Source: Quadrisphaera sp. DSM 44207 (lineage in GTDB: Bacteria; Actinomycetota; Actinomycetes; Actinomycetales; Quadrisphaeraceae). From it: DNA of 64,000 bases. The notes under the pieces are model-generated. The model was not told the origin of the DNA. It ran no database searches and was given only the letters and a program-made list of their open reading frames with translations. A program made the position numbers and the translations under genes. Where the stretch lies: positions 620,001 to 684,000 of the forward strand of contig NZ_FNKA01000001.1 of the NCBI RefSeq assembly GCF_900101335.1, given 5' to 3'. Positions 42,012 to 50,875 of the stretch are shown in pieces (the stretch's first letter is position 1; the number at the start of each line of letters is the position of its first letter).

Positions 42012-42024
42012 CGGCGCCGTCGGG

Positions 42025-42084
42025 GGTCCGGGCGTCCTGGGTCCGGGCGTCCTGGGTCCGGGCGTCCTGGGTCCGGACGTCCCG
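42025..42084. repeat. 15-bp tandem repeat x4 between convergent genes
   Basis: Four units of GGTCCGGGCGTCCTG (42025-42039, 42040-42054, 42055-42069; the fourth, 42070-42084, has two changes) fill the 87-nt space between the M13 peptidase and the SipW-LamG gene. Confidence 0.9.
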
Positions 42085-42098
42085 GGGGTCGTCCGCGG

Positions 42099-44330
42099 CT
42101 AGTGGTCGGCGGCGAAGCGGACGGCGACCTGCTCGGCGGTGAGGACCCTGGCGTAGACCGCCGCCTCGTCCAGGGAGCCGGTGAACGCGGACGCCGCGGG
42201 CGCGGGCGTGAACGCGTACGCGTCGCCGCCCGCCCAGCGCCAGTGGCCCTGCGCGGGGCCGGCGGCGGCGGTGTCGGCGCCGGAGGCCACCTGGACGCCG
42301 TCCAGGTACAGCCGCGCGCCACCGGCGCTGCTCGACGTCGCCGTCGCGAGGTGCCACTGCCCGTCGGACCAGTCGCGGCCGGTGGGTGACTGCACCGGGG
42401 TCCTGCCGTCGCCGGCGGTGAACGCCACCGCGCCCGCGCCGGTCACGTACAGGGTCGGGCCGCGCGAGGTGGACGTGCCCGTCGCGGCGGCGCTGAAGCC
42501 GACGAGCGGGCCCCCGTCCGCGCCGTCGGCCCTGAACCAGACCTCCAGGGTGACGGGGTCGGAGCGGGCCAGCAGCGGGCTGGTGATCGTCGCGGTCTCC
42601 ACGGTGCCCGAGCCGTTGCGCAGCCGCACGGCGGTGCTCGACGCCTGGTTGCCGATGGCGGTGCCCTCCAGCGCGCCCCGCACCCCCAGGGCGAAGCGCG
42701 GGAAGCGCCCGTAGGTGCCCGGCTCGGCGCCCTGCGCGTCGGCCACGACCCGCAGGGGTGCGGGGTCGTCGAGCCGCCAGTGCAGCTGCGGAGCGTCGGA
42801 GGCGACCAGGCCGCGGTAGGCCGCGGCGGTCCTCGTGCGGGCCTGGGAGTGCTCCACGACCTCCTCGGGCGCCAGCACCCGGGCGTAGACGGCGACCTCG
42901 TCCAGGGCGCCGGTGAACTGCTCCGCCACCTCCCCGAACGCGAGGTTCTCGTGCTCGACGGGGGCGGTGCCGAGGCGCCAGTGGCCGGCCGCGGGCGCCG
43001 GCAGGGTCCCGATCAGCCCGGCGTCGAACACCTCCGTGCCGTCGACGTAGACGACGAGGTCCTGCTCCGAGCCGTTCGGCTTCGGCGGGGCGTCCTGCCG
43101 GACGGTGGCGACGACGTGGTGCCACGCGGGCGCGGCCGTGCTGCCGGGGGTGAAGATCTTGGGGTCCCCCGCGTCGGCGCCGCACTGCTCCTGGTGGACG
43201 GTGGCGCCGCCGGCGTCCGTCTGCCTCACCAGCACGCACGCCTGGCCCTTCGGGTCGACCCACATCTGCGCGGCGCCACCGGTGGTCTCGGTGCGGGAGT
43301 CGGTCAGGCGCAGCAGCGAGCCCCCGGTGGAGGTCCTCACCCACGCCTCGAGGGTGAAGCCGGTCCGCGGGGCGTAGTCGACCGGCGTGTCCGTGGCGGC
43401 GTAGCGGTCCCCCGCGAACAGCACCGCCGTGCCCGCCGCGTCCCCGGTGATCGCGTCGTCGGACGTCACCACGGCGTCCGTGGGGCCGGTGTAGCTGCCC
43501 GCGGGGCCGGCTGCCGCCGCCGCCGTGCTGGTCCCCGGCGCGTCGTCCAGGCGGTGGTGCAGCAGCGGTCCGTCCGCGAGGACCGTCTGCGGGTAGCTCG
43601 GGAACGCCGCCTTCGTCGCGACCCGGTTGCCGCTGCTGGAGGTGGTGGCGACGAAGGCCGCACGGGCCTCGCCCGGTGCGACCACCGCCGCGCCGAGCAG
43701 CACCACGGCGAGGGCCCCAGCGGTCGCCGGGTGCGCCGGCAGCGCCCGGGCGGCGCGGCGCCCGCCGCGGTGCGCCCGGGGCCGTCGCGACCCGCCGCGG
43801 CGCGGCGGCGCCTGCCGGCGCGTGCGGTCGGCCCGGGCCCGCACGGCGCGGCGGGCGACGAGCACGAGCGCGGCGGTGCCGAGCAGCAGCGGCCCGTAGG
43901 CCCCCTGGTGCAGCCACAGGGCGGGCAGGCCCGCCGCCGGCACGCGCACGACGGCGCGGCCGTGGACGGCGGTGGGCTCGACGGGCGTGGAGTCGGGGTG
44001 CTCGTTGGCGTCGCCCCGGGTGACCAGGCGGCCGTCGGGGCGGACCTCGGCGACCCGGTGCACCAGCGACCCGCCGGGCCGCACCGGGTCGTCCACGACC
44101 ACGACCTGGCCGGCTCGCACCCGGCCCGCCCGCACCTGGCCGGGGCCGACCGGTGCGGACACCACGACGTCGCCGGGCTCGACGGCCGGGCGCATGGACC
44201 CGGACAGGACGACGTCCGAGCGCCACCCCAGCGCCACCGGCACCAGGGCCAGGGCGAGCAGCCCCACGAGCAGCGACAAGCCGGCCCAGCAGGCGCCGTC
44301 CAGCAGCAGCGCGCGCGAGCGACGGCTCAC
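42099..44330 (-). CDS. SipW-type signal peptidase fused to two LamG domains
   Basis: A 743-aa fusion. Residues 1-165 are an S26B (SipW/ER-like) signal peptidase: helix 1 (about 12-34), catalytic Ser45 in SGSMRP, His91 in SLVHRV in place of the bacterial Lys, Asp107/Asp113 in RGDANEHPD, and helix 2 (about 143-159). A basic linker leads to another helix (about 203-219), then ARAAFVATTSSSGN, which resembles the start of mature SipW substrates. Two LamG/concanavalin-like domains follow (about 255-490 and 500-743), each with HxRLDD, F-T-LE-W-R and LDE-A-VYARVL landmarks. Coupled by GTGA overlap to the upstream TasA-like gene. The enzyme and surface domains in one chain are unusual. Confidence 0.85.
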   Translation of the reverse strand: MSRRSRALLLDGACWAGLSLLVGLLALALVPVALGWRSDVVLSGSMRPAVEPGDVVVSAPVGPGQVRAGRVRAGQVVVVDDPVRPGGSLVHRVAEVRPDGRLVTRGDANEHPDSTPVEPTAVHGRAVVRVPAAGLPALWLHQGAYGPLLLGTAALVLVARRAVRARADRTRRQAPPRRGGSRRPRAHRGGRRAARALPAHPATAGALAVVLLGAAVVAPGEARAAFVATTSSSGNRVATKAAFPSYPQTVLADGPLLHHRLDDAPGTSTAAAAAGPAGSYTGPTDAVVTSDDAITGDAAGTAVLFAGDRYAATDTPVDYAPRTGFTLEAWVRTSTGGSLLRLTDSRTETTGGAAQMWVDPKGQACVLVRQTDAGGATVHQEQCGADAGDPKIFTPGSTAAPAWHHVVATVRQDAPPKPNGSEQDLVVYVDGTEVFDAGLIGTLPAPAAGHWRLGTAPVEHENLAFGEVAEQFTGALDEVAVYARVLAPEEVVEHSQARTRTAAAYRGLVASDAPQLHWRLDDPAPLRVVADAQGAEPGTYGRFPRFALGVRGALEGTAIGNQASSTAVRLRNGSGTVETATITSPLLARSDPVTLEVWFRADGADGGPLVGFSAAATGTSTSRGPTLYVTGAGAVAFTAGDGRTPVQSPTGRDWSDGQWHLATATSSSAGGARLYLDGVQVASGADTAAAGPAQGHWRWAGGDAYAFTPAPAASAFTGSLDEAAVYARVLTAEQVAVRFAADH

Positions 44331-44974
44331 GGCTCCTCGACGCTCTGGGCTTCCCAGACCACCTTCAGCGTGGTCGTCTTCCCCTGGATCGTCGCGTCGT
44401 AGCGGTTCTTGGGCAGCGCGTACGTGAAGCGGTAGCTGCGCTTGTCGCCGGCCGCCAGCGGCACCCACGTGCCGTGGCCGCTGGTCCACCCGGTGCCGAT
44501 GCCGCGCAGCTTGCCGCTGTAGACGGCGGGGCCGGCGGCGGTGAACGCGGCGCACGTCGCCGAGGCCGTCCCCTGCTCGACCGCGAAGTCGAGCTCGCCC
44601 GCGAGCGCGGGATCGCCGGTGACCTCGCCGAAGACCCGCACGCCCTGGCTGGCCACGGTGCCGCCGTAGGTGACGGTGACGCAGCCCGCGCCCCGCTTGC
44701 CGGGGACCATGTCGGCGACGGTGAACGCGGCCGCGTCGGCGTCGTCGTCGGTCAGCACCACCTCCCCCGTCGTCCACGCGTTGCCGGGGTTCTCCGTCTG
44801 GTCGAAGAAGGCCGCGTAGGAGGACTCCCACACGAGGAGCCCGCTCACGACGAGCCCCAGGGGGACGGCGACGGCCGCGACGGTGGCGCGGCCGGTGCGC
44901 GGCGAGGGGTTCACGGCGGCTCGCCGCCCCGGACGCCGGGCGCGGCGGCTGCGGACGGGTCGATCGGTGGTCAT
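44327..44974 (-). CDS. TasA/camelysin-like secreted protein
   Basis: A 215-aa protein with a basic N-terminus, one signal-anchor helix (about 30-48) and then SSYAAFFDQTENPGNAWTTGEVVL, the pattern by which SipW-processed TasA/camelysin proteins begin. The rest is predicted beta-rich: CVTVTYGGTVASQGVRVFGEV, FAVEQGTASATC, VYSGKLRGI and YRFTYALPKN. Two Cys may pair. It should be cleaved by the SipW-type enzyme encoded next in the operon, with which it overlaps by 4 nt. GAGGAGG precedes ATG 44974. It may form surface fibres as TasA does, but this is inference. Confidence 0.78.
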   Translation of the reverse strand: MTTDRPVRSRRARRPGRRAAVNPSPRTGRATVAAVAVPLGLVVSGLLVWESSYAAFFDQTENPGNAWTTGEVVLTDDDADAAAFTVADMVPGKRGAGCVTVTYGGTVASQGVRVFGEVTGDPALAGELDFAVEQGTASATCAAFTAAGPAVYSGKLRGIGTGWTSGHGTWVPLAAGDKRSYRFTYALPKNRYDATIQGKTTTLKVVWEAQSVEEP

Positions 44975-45017
44975 GGTGCCTCCTCGGGCGGACGGCATCC
45001 GATCGGCAGGGCGGCGA

Positions 45018-45068
45018 GGGACCTTGAGCGGCACGGGACCCCGAGCGGCGCGGGACCCCGAGCGGCGC
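45018..45068. promoter_or_regulatory. Three 17-bp direct repeats in the divergent TasA-like promoter region
   Basis: Units at 45018-45034, 45035-45051 and 45052-45068, the last two identical (GGGACCCCGAGCGGCGC), the first with three changes. They lie in the 180-nt gap between the two divergent TasA-like genes and so are good candidates for operators of a shared regulator. The rest of that gap holds only the two ribosome-binding sites. Confidence 0.55.
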
Positions 45069-45154
45069 GGCGCCCCGGCGCGCGAGGGCTCCAGATCCCC
45101 CGCCCGCGAGCCGACAGGAGGGAGGAGAGGTGCCGGAGCGGGAGGAGGTGCGGG

Positions 45155-46444
45155 GTGCGGTCGCTGGTGGTGCTCCTGCTGGTCCTCGCGACCGCCCTCG
45201 GGTCCGCCGCGCCCGCTGCCGCCGCCGAGGAGGTGCGCCTGTCCTCCGACGCCGGCGGGCCCCTGTTCCCCACCGGCGCTCCCCTGGCCCCCGGCTCGTC
45301 CTCCCGCTGCGCGGTCCTCGCCTGGACGGCGAACCCGGGCGGCCGCTCCCTGGTCCTCTCGGCGCGGGCCCAGGGGGCCCTGGCCGCTCACCTCGGCGTC
45401 GTGGTCGAGGTGGGCACGGGCGGCTCCTACGCCGAGCCGGGGTGCACGAGCTTCCAGCCCGGCGGCGCTCCGGCCTTCAGCGGCACCCTGGCGCAGCTCG
45501 CGGCCGAGCCGGCGCCGGTGGCGCTGGCGGCCCTGCCGGCGACGCCGGGCCGCCTGACGCTGCGCGTCCTCGTCCGGGTGCCGCGCGACGACACGGCGTC
45601 CGGCCTGAGCGCCACCGGCTCCTTCACCGTCCGCGCGTCCGGGGACCCCCTGCCGGCGCCCGCGCCTGCGCCGACCCCGCGGCCGGAGCCGACCCCAGAA
45701 CCCGGGCCGACCCCAGGACCGGAGCCGACGCCGACGCCGACCCCTGAGCCGACGCCGACCCCTGAGCCGACGCCGACCCCTGAGCCAGCCCCGACGCCGG
45801 AGCCGGCCCCGCCGCCGTCCTCGGGAGGTTCCCCGAGAAGCGCCCTGGGAGGCGCCCCGGCCCCCGCGCCTCCCCGGGTCGTGCTGTCCGCGCCCGCGGC
45901 GCCGGGAGGCGACCCGATCCGGATCCCGCAGGTCCCCCTCGCCGACCCCGGGCGCGCGCCGACGGCGGACCCCGACCCCGCGGGGACCGCGGACGCCGAC
46001 GCCGACGCCGGCGCCGACAGCGAGACCGGCAGCGACGCCCTCGCCGGCACCGACGCCGTCGCCGGCGTCGGCACCGGCGACGGCCCCGGCGGCGACGCGG
46101 TCACCCTGCCCCTGACCAGCGGCGGCGAGGAGGACGAGGGCCTGCTCGACCGGGTCCTCGGCGGCGACGTCGCCGCAGCGGTCCGCGAGGCGCTCGCGGC
46201 GCCCGTCCAGGCGGTGCGGGAGGCGGCCACGGCGGTCGCGAGGGTGGCGGTCGCCTCCGCGGCGCCCGCGGCCCGCGGCGCCTCCTGGGGCCTGAGCACC
46301 CTGCTGCTGCTGGCCCTGTTCCTCGCCGTGCAGCACCGCATCGACGCCCGCGACCCCAAGCTCGCGCTGGCCCCGGTCTCGGCCGACCCCGACCTCCCCT
46401 TCGACGAGCGGTACCCGTCCCCGACCCCAGGAGCCCAGGGATGA
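45155..46444 (+). CDS. TasA-like surface protein with Pro/Thr/Glu repeat stalk and C-terminal membrane helix
   Basis: A 429-aa protein. Signal peptide (1-24, AAPAAAA), a beta-rich domain (about 25-165) with the same landmarks as actinobacterial TasA/camelysin-like proteins (APLAPGSSSRCAVL, LAAHLGVVVEVGTGG, CTSFQPGG, FSGTLAQLA), a stalk of PEPTPTPEPTPTPEP-type repeats (about 168-224), an acidic Asp/Ala/Gly region and a membrane helix (about 375-392) with a short tail. It should stand out from the cell surface. GGAGGAGGTG precedes GTG 45155. Its stop overlaps the diguanylate cyclase start (ATGA). Confidence 0.75.
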   Translation: MRSLVVLLLVLATALGSAAPAAAAEEVRLSSDAGGPLFPTGAPLAPGSSSRCAVLAWTANPGGRSLVLSARAQGALAAHLGVVVEVGTGGSYAEPGCTSFQPGGAPAFSGTLAQLAAEPAPVALAALPATPGRLTLRVLVRVPRDDTASGLSATGSFTVRASGDPLPAPAPAPTPRPEPTPEPGPTPGPEPTPTPTPEPTPTPEPTPTPEPAPTPEPAPPPSSGGSPRSALGGAPAPAPPRVVLSAPAAPGGDPIRIPQVPLADPGRAPTADPDPAGTADADADAGADSETGSDALAGTDAVAGVGTGDGPGGDAVTLPLTSGGEEDEGLLDRVLGGDVAAAVREALAAPVQAVREAATAVARVAVASAAPAARGASWGLSTLLLLALFLAVQHRIDARDPKLALAPVSADPDLPFDERYPSPTPGAQG

Positions 46445-48000
46445 GCGCGCAGCAGGCCGGGGACGTCGGTCTCGTCCCCCTGATGGACCGCATCCGCGGC
46501 CTGGAGGCGTGCCGCCCGGTGCTGGCGGTCGGGGCGCTGGTCGCGCACCTGGTCTCCGGCGCCGCCCGCCCCGAGCTGACCGTCCTCCTCCTCGTCGCCA
46601 GCGGCGCGCACCTGGCCCTGACGCTCCCGACGCTGCTCGCGCCCCGGCTGCGGCGCGCGAGCGCCGTCCGGCTGCACGGCCTCGCCCTGCTCCTGGACGG
46701 CGTGCACCTGGCCGTCGTCGCCTACGGCGTCCACGGCTACGGGCACCCGGTCCTGGCGCTGCTGCTGGTCCACCTGGTCTCGGTGACCCTGCTCGGCTCC
46801 TTCCGCAGCGGCTTGAAGGTGGCCGTGTGGAACAGCCTGCTCATGGCCGTCACCCACCAGCTGCAGCTGGAGGGCGTCGTCCCGGCTCCCGCGGCGACCG
46901 ACGGCCGGACCGTCGTCCTCGCCGTCGCGGGCGTGTGGCTGGTGACCACGACCACGGCGGTGTTCGCGGCGGCGAACGAGCGCGAGCTGCGCCGCCGCAC
47001 CTACGACGCCGCGACCCTCGCCCGGTTCTCCCTGCGCCTGGAGGCCTCCCTGGAGCCCGCAGAGGTCGCCGCGACGCTCGCCGGGGCCGTCACCGAGGAC
47101 TTCGGCCTGGCGCGGGCGGTGGTCCTCGGGCCCGGCCCGGAGGTCCTGGAGCGCCTGGCCGGCGCCGGGGACGCCGTGCGGGCCGAGGAGGACGAGGAGC
47201 CCGGCGCGCCGGGCCGCCGCAGCGCCGTGGAGGACCACATGGTGCGCACCGCGATCGCCGAGCACCGCAGCGTCCGCGTGCCCCGGCTGGACCCCGCCCG
47301 CGACCCCTGGCTGTCCGCGGCGCTGCCCGGTGCGCGCAACCTGCTGCTCGTCCCGCTCTACGCCGACGGCACCGTCGTCGGCGTGCTGGCCGCCGAGCAC
47401 GGCGGCCGGCGCGGGGCGCGGGTGGAGCGCCGGGCGCTGGAGGTGCTCGAGCGCTACGCCTCCCACGCGGCGCTCGCCCTGAGCAGCGCCCGCCTGCTGG
47501 TGCAGGTGAGGCGGCAGGCGGAGACCGACGGCCTGACCGGGGTCGCGAACCGCCGCACGTTCGACCGGACGCTGGCGCAGGAGCTGGCGCGCGGGGCCGC
47601 CGCCGGCCAGCCGGTGACCCTGGTCATGGTCGACATCGACCACTTCAAGCGGCTCAACGACGCGTTCGGCCACCAGACCGGCGACCTGGTGCTGAAGCGG
47701 GTGGCGCACGCGCTGGAGACCGCGGTGCGCCGCAGCGACCTGCTCGCCCGCTACGGCGGGGAGGAGTTCGCCGTCGTGGTGCCGGGTGCCTCCCCGGAGG
47801 AGGTCGTCGAGATCGCCGAGCGCCTGCGCGCCGCCGTCCGGGAGGCCTCCTCCGACCCCGCCGTCACGGCGAGCTTCGGGGTGGCCACCGCGGTGGGCGC
47901 CGCCGCGACGCCCGAGCGGCTGCTCGCCGCGGCCGACCAGGCGCTGTACCGCTCCAAGGAGGGCGGGCGCGACCGCGTCACCGCGGCGCTCCTCGACTGA
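46441..48000 (+). CDS. Membrane diguanylate cyclase with GAF and GGDEF domains
   Basis: A 519-aa protein: about five or six membrane helices (residues 18-175), a GAF-like domain (about 185-350, ending in GVLAAEHGGRRG) and a GGDEF domain (about 355-519). The active site is GGEEF near residue 439, and RRSD five residues before it is a canonical RxxD product-inhibition site, so it should make c-di-GMP with feedback control. DGLTGVANRRTFD and DIDHFKRLNDAFGH are intact. The ATG overlaps the upstream surface-protein stop by 4 nt, tying c-di-GMP synthesis to that protein's message. Confidence 0.92.
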   Translation: MSAQQAGDVGLVPLMDRIRGLEACRPVLAVGALVAHLVSGAARPELTVLLLVASGAHLALTLPTLLAPRLRRASAVRLHGLALLLDGVHLAVVAYGVHGYGHPVLALLLVHLVSVTLLGSFRSGLKVAVWNSLLMAVTHQLQLEGVVPAPAATDGRTVVLAVAGVWLVTTTTAVFAAANERELRRRTYDAATLARFSLRLEASLEPAEVAATLAGAVTEDFGLARAVVLGPGPEVLERLAGAGDAVRAEEDEEPGAPGRRSAVEDHMVRTAIAEHRSVRVPRLDPARDPWLSAALPGARNLLLVPLYADGTVVGVLAAEHGGRRGARVERRALEVLERYASHAALALSSARLLVQVRRQAETDGLTGVANRRTFDRTLAQELARGAAAGQPVTLVMVDIDHFKRLNDAFGHQTGDLVLKRVAHALETAVRRSDLLARYGGEEFAVVVPGASPEEVVEIAERLRAAVREASSDPAVTASFGVATAVGAAATPERLLAAADQALYRSKEGGRDRVTAALLD

Positions 48001-48020: not shown

Positions 48021-48040
48021 GTGATCTTGCACGTCCGGTC
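48021..48040. repeat. Single half-copy of the GTGATCnTGCACGTCC element
   Basis: GTGATCTTGCACGTCCGGTC, identical over 20 nt to the left arm region of the 50.8-kb palindrome, sits 20 nt after the diguanylate cyclase stop. No inverted partner is present. Confidence 0.7.
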
Positions 48041-50733: not shown

Positions 50734-50831
50734 CCCTCGACTCTACGGACGGCGCGCGCGGGCGGCGCACCGACCGATCCCGCCGACCGCTCTCGCCGAC
50801 CGCTCCCGCCGCCCACCCCGCCCGTCGCCGT

Positions 50832-50875
50832 GATCTTGCACGTCCGGTCGCGCACCGGACCGGACGTGCAAGATC
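50832..50875 (-). terminator. Palindrome after the adenosine deaminase gene
   Basis: Perfect 18-bp arms, GATCTTGCACGTCCGGTC at 50832-50849 and its complement at 50858-50875, with an 8-nt loop. It starts 16 nt past the add stop codon and lies upstream of fbiC, so it fits an add terminator. Same family as 3.7 and 48.0 kb. Confidence 0.7.

Follow-up and report, generated by a model that had tools for sequence, protein, structure and literature searches.

We analysed a window of 64,000 nucleotides (nt) from the 3.2-Mb, high-GC genome of Quadrisphaera sp. DSM 44207 (contig NZ_FNKA01000001.1, positions 620,001 to 684,000), in which positions 42099-48000 hold four genes arranged as two overlapping pairs that diverge from a 180-nt region (44975..45154). 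On the minus strand, a TasA-like protein of 215 amino acids (aa), a candidate fibre subunit (44327..44974), is followed by a 743-aa fusion of a SipW-type signal peptidase with two LamG domains (42099..44330), while on the plus strand a membrane-anchored stalk protein (429 aa, GTG start, 45155..46444) is followed by a diguanylate cyclase with a GGDEF domain (519 aa, 46441..48000). The explanation that we favour with moderate confidence is that the stalk and GGDEF genes encode a two-chain transmembrane receptor, in which a TasA-fold ectodomain without a donor strand would sense or anchor the fibre and thereby set the level of cyclic di-GMP (c-di-GMP). The earlier note on this DNA, made from the sequence, had described two divergent, tightly coupled pairs, and the coordinates and overlaps are as claimed: the GTG start of the SipW-LamG gene lies within the stop of the TasA-like gene (GTGA), and the stalk and GGDEF genes overlap by ATGA. 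A codon-usage gene finder trained on eight window genes, these four among them, recovered all four and favoured an internal GTG at 44914 as the start of the TasA-like gene.

The main argument for the receptor is the recurrence of its two chains across Actinomycetota. The stalk protein consists of a signal peptide, a TasA-fold domain, a proline-rich stalk, a transmembrane (TM) helix and a tail, FLAVQHRIDARDPKLALA (helix and tail at 46253..46432, from an alignment of 24 tails; the tail is presumably cytoplasmic), and in alignments and searches the constant partner of the tail gene is the N-terminal, six-transmembrane (6TM)-type module of the cyclase (46441..47076). Because the full-length stalk drew mostly proline-rich matches in the genomes of the family, its N-terminal part alone served as query and matched in 14 of 396 genomes of the order; at the best matches outside this genome (L016-L019) the four-gene set is complete but convergent. 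With the 6TM module as bait, matches were obtained in 12 of 396 genomes at order level, 20 of 394 at class level and 27 of 396 at phylum level, as well as at seven loci of a named genome collection, including Kineococcus xinjiangensis and two metagenome-assembled genomes (MAGs) of Solirubrobacteraceae. The gene immediately upstream of the 6TM gene encodes the tail at 12 of 13 order-level places (the weak match G332 being the one without), in 17 of the 20 class-level neighbourhoods fetched (of 24 rows), and at 17 of 27 phylum-level loci, the sole set not used for building the tail model, where the tail was present at 17 of the 18 best and none of the nine weakest loci, a division drawn after the result was known. 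An overlap of 4 or 1 nt is possible in 37 of 46 tail loci, and the gap is within 30 nt in 43 of them; L069, with a tail and, by eye, a DUF11-like ectodomain, is outside these 46-locus counts and inside the 47-locus count given below, and excluded from the counts were G204 (weak, short, tail-less), the cut fragment G526:C493 (no tail seen) and L047 of a Solirubrobacteraceae MAG (no tail gene found). Searching for the tail itself, we found it in 17 of 394 genomes of the class sample, 16 of which also have a 6TM gene, the 17th match being weak (5.2e-4) and falling in a long membrane protein with no relation apparent by eye. The linkage to a c-di-GMP enzyme drawn in the earlier note thus extends well beyond one genome, with the stalk-GGDEF pairing present in dozens.

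Judged from this genome alone, the adjacency would be weak evidence, because the genome contains a second TasA/SipW cluster and 23 GGDEF matches above the cut-off. With so many GGDEF genes in 3.2 Mb, and with nothing matching the window cyclase in the 19 kb around that second cluster, one could suppose that a common TasA/SipW cluster and one of the GGDEF genes became neighbours by chance. However, the pairing recurs with rearranged gene order in several families and is associated with TasA-type outer domains, and chance adjacency, which we rank as extremely improbable, was rejected on these grounds. Where the outer domain is TasA-type, TasA/SipW genes adjoin 11 of 14 pairs, versus none of 33 others (p 2.1e-8; 11 of 14 versus 0 of 32 in the 46-locus Fisher count, cut flanks disregarded). 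Because giant or cut tail frames run off the stretch in 10 of the 33 other-type loci, making upstream neighbours invisible there, we also made a count restricted to loci whose flanks can be seen for 3 kb or more in each direction, which gave 9 of 12 versus 0 of 17 (p 2.2e-5), or 6 of 9 versus 0 of 17 without the Kineosporia-group loci L037-L039 (p 3.6e-4), all of these p values overstating the significance, since the loci are related. Families with TasA/SipW genes beside the pair are f1, f14, f15, f18, f32, f47 and f90, joined by one Solirubrobacteraceae MAG, and the order of genes changes among them: divergent in the window, convergent in L037-L040, stalk-cyclase-SipW with a divergent TasA in L072, stalk-cyclase and then a SipW::TasA fusion in L048, and on one strand throughout in L112 (TasA-TasA-SipW-stalk-cyclase) and L177 (SipW, TasA, stalk, cyclase). 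L105 has TasA and SipW upstream and a further TasA on the other strand, and in L049 a divergent TasA was found by model and SipW by eye only, across frameshifts. As to TasA/SipW clusters elsewhere, the second one of this genome (L013 6964-10465; G000:C3, about 470-473.5 kb) comprises two TasA genes separated by one for a small secreted protein, then SipW and, overlapping it, a separate substrate-like gene, and the Kineosporia-group clusters L041, L042 and L043 adjoin genes that by eye are flhA-/flhF-like flagellar genes.

Both ends of the pair are exchanged around the constant tail and 6TM module. The 24 aligned tails share the core FLxxQxx(I/L/V)DxxDPKLA with eight invariant positions; as they come from class- and order-level loci beside a 6TM gene and were picked by a PKLA-containing pattern (all 24 loci tried yielded one), the invariance of PKLA and the co-occurrence of tail and 6TM are partly built in. 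The outer domains are TasA-like (14 loci), NHL, Big_13 immunoglobulin (Ig) repeats (5 to 22 stretches in the three proteins scanned) or short low-complexity segments, and the output is HisKA_3 plus HATPase, not GGDEF, in seven loci. In a tree of 6TM modules (L116 and L184, too short, omitted), six histidine-kinase loci form one clade (98/99) among GGDEF forms, and the outer-domain label changes 10 times against a least possible number of 4 (five labels including 'none', set by hand, with L168, NHL by a small model, relabelled Ig because its sequence reads as L142). The same tree joins two loci of family f14 as sisters (100/94), L070 of NHL type and K. xinjiangensis, whose TasA type was assigned by model, so that the outer domain has been exchanged there; L068 (NHL plus fn3) and L070 (weaker NHL, above cut-off) are the members scanned with Pfam, and the NHL label of L071 and L073 comes from a home-built model made from them. 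If tail and 6TM module formed a physical interface, they would be expected to stay constant in this way while the ends are exchanged.

An alternative explanation is co-expression alone: the tail protein would serve as an adhesin or fibre anchor held in the membrane, and its neighbour, the cyclase, would raise c-di-GMP globally, the two never touching. Gene overlap yields co-translation without contact, and the Big_13 repeats make several tail proteins adhesin-like, but it is difficult to see why the tail would be preserved through outer-domain exchange, and through the replacement of GGDEF by a histidine kinase, without 6TM contact, and in the class sample the tail is almost confined to 6TM-bearing genomes, with the caveat that the tail model was derived from such loci; we therefore rate co-expression alone as rather unlikely. 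Still less probable in our judgement is control from the inside out, similar to LapD/LapG, in which local c-di-GMP or the state of the 6TM protein would govern display, proteolysis or release of the surface protein. The conserved tail could then be the controlled part and the GAF domain a possible cytoplasmic input, yet the differing outputs (GGDEF, histidine kinase) suit a sensor better than an effector.

Returning to the two-chain receptor, the loci with a clear 6TM-GGDEF protein in which no tail was found are L113, L115, L117, L047 and L141/L185 (in the last two the cyclase lies about 1 kb from a contig start). The 6TM identity of L113 is 58%, versus 66-79% at 80-84% GGDEF identity, and that of L115/L117 versus L110 is 46% against 60%, which is suggestive of a faster 6TM change where the tail gene is lost, although the comparison covers three loci, two of them sisters, in which GAF is relaxed as well. 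A gene that by eye is aldehyde-dehydrogenase-like lies beside or near the L113 and L117 cyclases. Near GGDEF matches, L137, L138 and L140 encode short proteins whose tail is a DVKLS variant, possibly a second branch of the receptor family.

The ectodomain of the stalk protein (residues 24-165, 45224..45649) had no family match when the full protein was scanned with Pfam and NCBIfam, and its TasA-type assignment comes from a predicted model. The domain was modelled from an alignment of 11 with the signal peptide still included (mean predicted local distance difference test score, pLDDT, 85.0). Foldseek placed the TasA fibre 8aur first (E 4.7e-4), the fit to the fibre reached Z 8.2 over 145 residues with TasA crystal forms next (Z 6.9), and the three TasA entries (Z 6.9-8.2) outrank donor-strand pilins as well as archaeal bundling pili, for which Z is 6.7 at most. 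The domain also matches the TasA paralogue of its own genome by sequence (E 3.3e-5), and we regard it as a TasA-type domain at the level of the predicted fold. The signal peptide is ordinary-looking and not SipW-type, and the mature protein starts at about EEVRLSSD, aligned to the strand that follows the TasA donor segment; in the alignments the stalks lack an equivalent of TasA residues 28-47 and begin at the strand equivalent to residues 48-61. According to the excerpt of PMC9674648, residues 28-38 of TasA complete the sheet of the next subunit in fibres, and residues 48-61 take that place in the monomer. Since the N-terminal donor strand is missing and the domain starts at the 48-61 equivalent, the stalk would be an acceptor and not a donor.

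The presumed donor is the TasA-like protein, which carries a SipW-type signal with a putative cleavage site, SSYA/AFFDQ, read from the sequence, with Phe at P2' and a mature start that is probably AFFDQTENPGNAW; Phe at P2' is also found in TasA (excerpt of PMC10269814). The Pfam and NCBIfam scans gave no family for this protein, nor did Pfam camelysin/M73 (PF12389) match it, which five of the fifteen aligned relatives (the window protein being one of the fifteen) match weakly (E up to 0.1, best 8.7e-5). Its model has a pLDDT of 77.7, with most 10-residue blocks from residue 71 near or over 90 and residues 44-66, the N-terminal segment AFFDQTENPGNAW, under 50, a low confidence that would be expected of a free donor strand. 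With VIA-align, TasA crystal structures came first (5of2, Z 10.4 over 135 residues; second 10.3), ahead of the best non-TasA entry at Z 7.9, and in Foldseek TasA ranked second and third (probability 1.00, E 6.1e-4). The alignment run against PDB sequences gave no TasA and only weak matches to MS2-type coat proteins (E 0.056 and up), so that the assignment rests on fold comparison and the weak Pfam matches of relatives. On this basis the predicted fold is TasA-type, and the protein is a candidate fibre subunit. The earlier note had read both proteins as TasA-like, and the models bear this out (Z 10.4 and 8.2).

In the second chain, the 6TM-type module is followed by GAF (41.5 bits) and GGDEF (156.1 bits, cut-off 23.8), both above their Pfam cut-offs and also supported, like LamG, by the Pfam and NCBIfam scans taken together, and the GG(D/E)EF motif is intact (GGEEF, RRSDLLARYGGEEF), with an RxxD, which we take to be the inhibition site, five residues before GGEEF. 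Hydropathy shows three peaks in the window protein and six in two relatives. 6TM_PilS (PF25323) is matched above its cut-off (29-33 versus 27 bits) by three relatives, L149, L151 and L152; L153 and L142 reach about 18 bits, with three further kinase forms unlisted. PilS binds the pilin PilA directly through its six TM segments (excerpt of PMC6058289), and together with the 6TM_PilS matches of these three kinase-type relatives this led us to propose binding between the 6TM module and the tail protein.

From these elements we infer a physical complex, a fibre ligand, acceptance of a donor strand and a direction of signalling from outside to inside. Chain 1 would be a single-pass membrane protein whose exchangeable outer domain is followed by a stalk, a TM helix and, as its conserved end, the DPKLA tail. 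The 6TM module of chain 2 would receive this TM helix and tail, and the signal would pass on through GAF to the output domain, GGDEF in the window. The TasA-like protein would be matured by the neighbouring SipW-type peptidase, which probably also matures its own fused LamG part, and the stalk ectodomain could accept the donor strand of a TasA-like subunit while having none to donate, so that the C-terminally anchored stalk is probably the membrane-bound end point, the terminal acceptor, of a TasA-type fibre. Occupancy of this acceptor by a fibre, or pull on it, would act through the tail on the 6TM cyclase and alter c-di-GMP, thereby coupling the status of the matrix fibre to the sessile programme. 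The earlier note had seen a stalked TasA-like protein and a cyclase on one message; pairing and fold hold, whereas the stalk is probably not a fibre-forming product that merely shares the message, since a widespread conserved-tail membrane protein with an exchangeable outer part and the same 6TM neighbour suggests a receptor or anchor that forms a complex with the cyclase. More tentatively, and with less confidence than for the window itself, we propose a phylum-wide family of two-chain receptors: different surface proteins (fibre-subunit acceptors, propellers or giant Ig adhesins) would connect interchangeably, by way of a single conserved DPKLA tail, to a shared 6TM module with either c-di-GMP synthesis or a histidine kinase as its output, the TasA version reading the presence or tension of the cell's own matrix fibre through a dead-end subunit without a donor strand.

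Besides the limits given with the counts, several observations weigh against the receptor and its TasA-type parts. The TasA fibre form reaches only Z 6.9 to the model of the TasA-like protein in VIA-align, and in Foldseek a lysozyme inhibitor (E 2.9e-4) outranks TasA with the same model. For the stalk, Z 8.2 exceeds the scores of pilins and of unrelated beta-sandwich proteins by no wide margin, and the signal peptide in its model aligns with the donor-strand region of TasA (model residues 8.. to chain 28..), so that the better match to the fibre form may in part be an artefact of including that peptide. The L112 stalk retains a short segment ahead of its domain, and the TasA-type stalks L111, L114 and L116 have no TasA or SipW gene nearby. 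Tails vary in the phylum set (DAKLA, DPKLV, DPRLS), and that of L112 has E in place of the D of DPKLA. The window 6TM module matches 6TM_PilS at E 0.73 (9.9 of 27 bits), and each of the three relatives above the cut-off has a histidine kinase as output; the remaining kinase forms and L142, the GGDEF form scanned, fall below it.

The SipW-type peptidase, whose presence the earlier note had also proposed, is consistent with SipW-type signals at the locus and with a substrate carrying such a signal, the TasA-like protein, encoded in the same operon. Its peptidase domain (43851..44330, minus strand, limits approximate) contains SGSM and HRV motifs, to which we presumptively assign Ser/His catalysis, and lies slightly below the Peptidase_S26 cut-off (19.9 of 22.9 bits) as well as below the NCBIfam cut-offs of the archaeal-type signal peptidase model TIGR02228 (49.4 of 51.85 bits) and of SipW NF046067 (26.7 of 190). 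Further along the same strand follow a second hydrophobic segment and a SipW-type cleavage motif, GEARA/AFVATTSSSGN (43623..43733, place approximate), a first LamG domain (42831..43538, by Pfam/NCBIfam, limits approximate) and a second (residues 579-736, 42123..42596, by Pfam), Laminin_G_3 being matched in these two stretches (9.1e-38). The fusion is, as far as its sequence tells, a probable case of a peptidase joined to its own substrate, and Phe occupies P2' in it as in the TasA-like protein. Among 18 SipW stretches listed (one cut at the locus end, near-copies dropped), a substrate-like part is in frame in the window, L020, L021, L022, L023, L048 and L177, with the second hydrophobic segment and an A-x-F motif visible in five of these fusions (window, L020, L021, L048, L177). 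In K. xinjiangensis (L048 8605-9894) SipW (residues 11-154) and TasA (231-427) form one open reading frame, beyond which lie further genes that by eye have SipW-type signals. Such peptidase-substrate fusions might be self-maturing. The E. coli signal peptidase cleaves poorly with an aromatic residue at P2', and for TasA, Trp at P2 is blamed (excerpt of PMC10269814).

The divergent intergenic region contains 17-nt direct repeats at 45011-45070 (3.5 copies, 88% matches), possibly binding repeats for a regulator. A scan of the window with Rfam gave no family above the gathering score, and a BldD-box-like pattern, for which we assumed the consensus, had two matches versus 3.3 expected, none inside the cluster. 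Directly beyond the end of the SipW-LamG gene, at 42024-42086, is a 15-nt tandem repeat (GGGTCCGGGCGTCCT, 4.2 copies). Another repeat, GTGATCTTGCANGTCCGG, occurs at 48021-48038 and 50830-50847 and 18 times genome-wide (reversed control 0), with six inverted pairs whose arms are separated by 4-13 nt, and is probably an intergenic palindromic or terminator-like repeat family.

Compared with known systems, the locus shares with Bacillus subtilis tapA-sipW-tasA a secreted TasA-fold protein that bears a SipW-type signal, and an overlapping gene for a SipW-type peptidase. It differs from that operon, which consists of tapA, sipW and tasA (excerpt of PMC9674648), in its actinobacterial host, the LamG fusion of the peptidase and the linked membrane-anchored TasA-fold protein and cyclase; no TapA was recognised at the window locus, where no model-based TapA search was made. 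As in PilS-PilA, a 6TM sensor, for which three kinase-type relatives match 6TM_PilS, is paired with a membrane-inserted protein of a surface-fibre family, but in the window that partner is encoded by an overlapping gene and bears its TM helix at the C-terminus, together with a conserved tail, the output is GGDEF, and the window 6TM protein itself is far below the Pfam cut-off. The stalk domain also resembles donor-strand-exchange pilins (CfaB, FimG), the bundling pili of Pyrobaculum and the archaeal 0406 filament, from the group of archaeal bundling pili and threads, whereas it lacks a donor strand and has a C-terminal membrane anchor, and these non-TasA matches are modest. The cyclase is like other GAF-GGDEF cyclases in its GAF, its GGDEF and its GGEEF with RxxD, and unlike them in its 6TM-type N-terminus and recurrent upstream partner gene. 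Among the matches listed from open-access literature (subscription papers and preprints being outside its coverage), neither an actinobacterial TasA/SipW cluster with a cyclase nor a DPKLA-tail receptor appeared.

To our knowledge, how Gram-positive bacteria sense attachment or embedding in a matrix is largely an open question. An adhesion or matrix role of the system is plausible from its gene content, and if the receptor reading is true, a fibre-subunit receptor wired to c-di-GMP would directly link matrix assembly and the sessile programme. The constant tail/6TM pair with its exchangeable ends would offer a ready test system for transmembrane signalling, and its recurrence suggests roles for many unnamed surface proteins of Actinomycetota.

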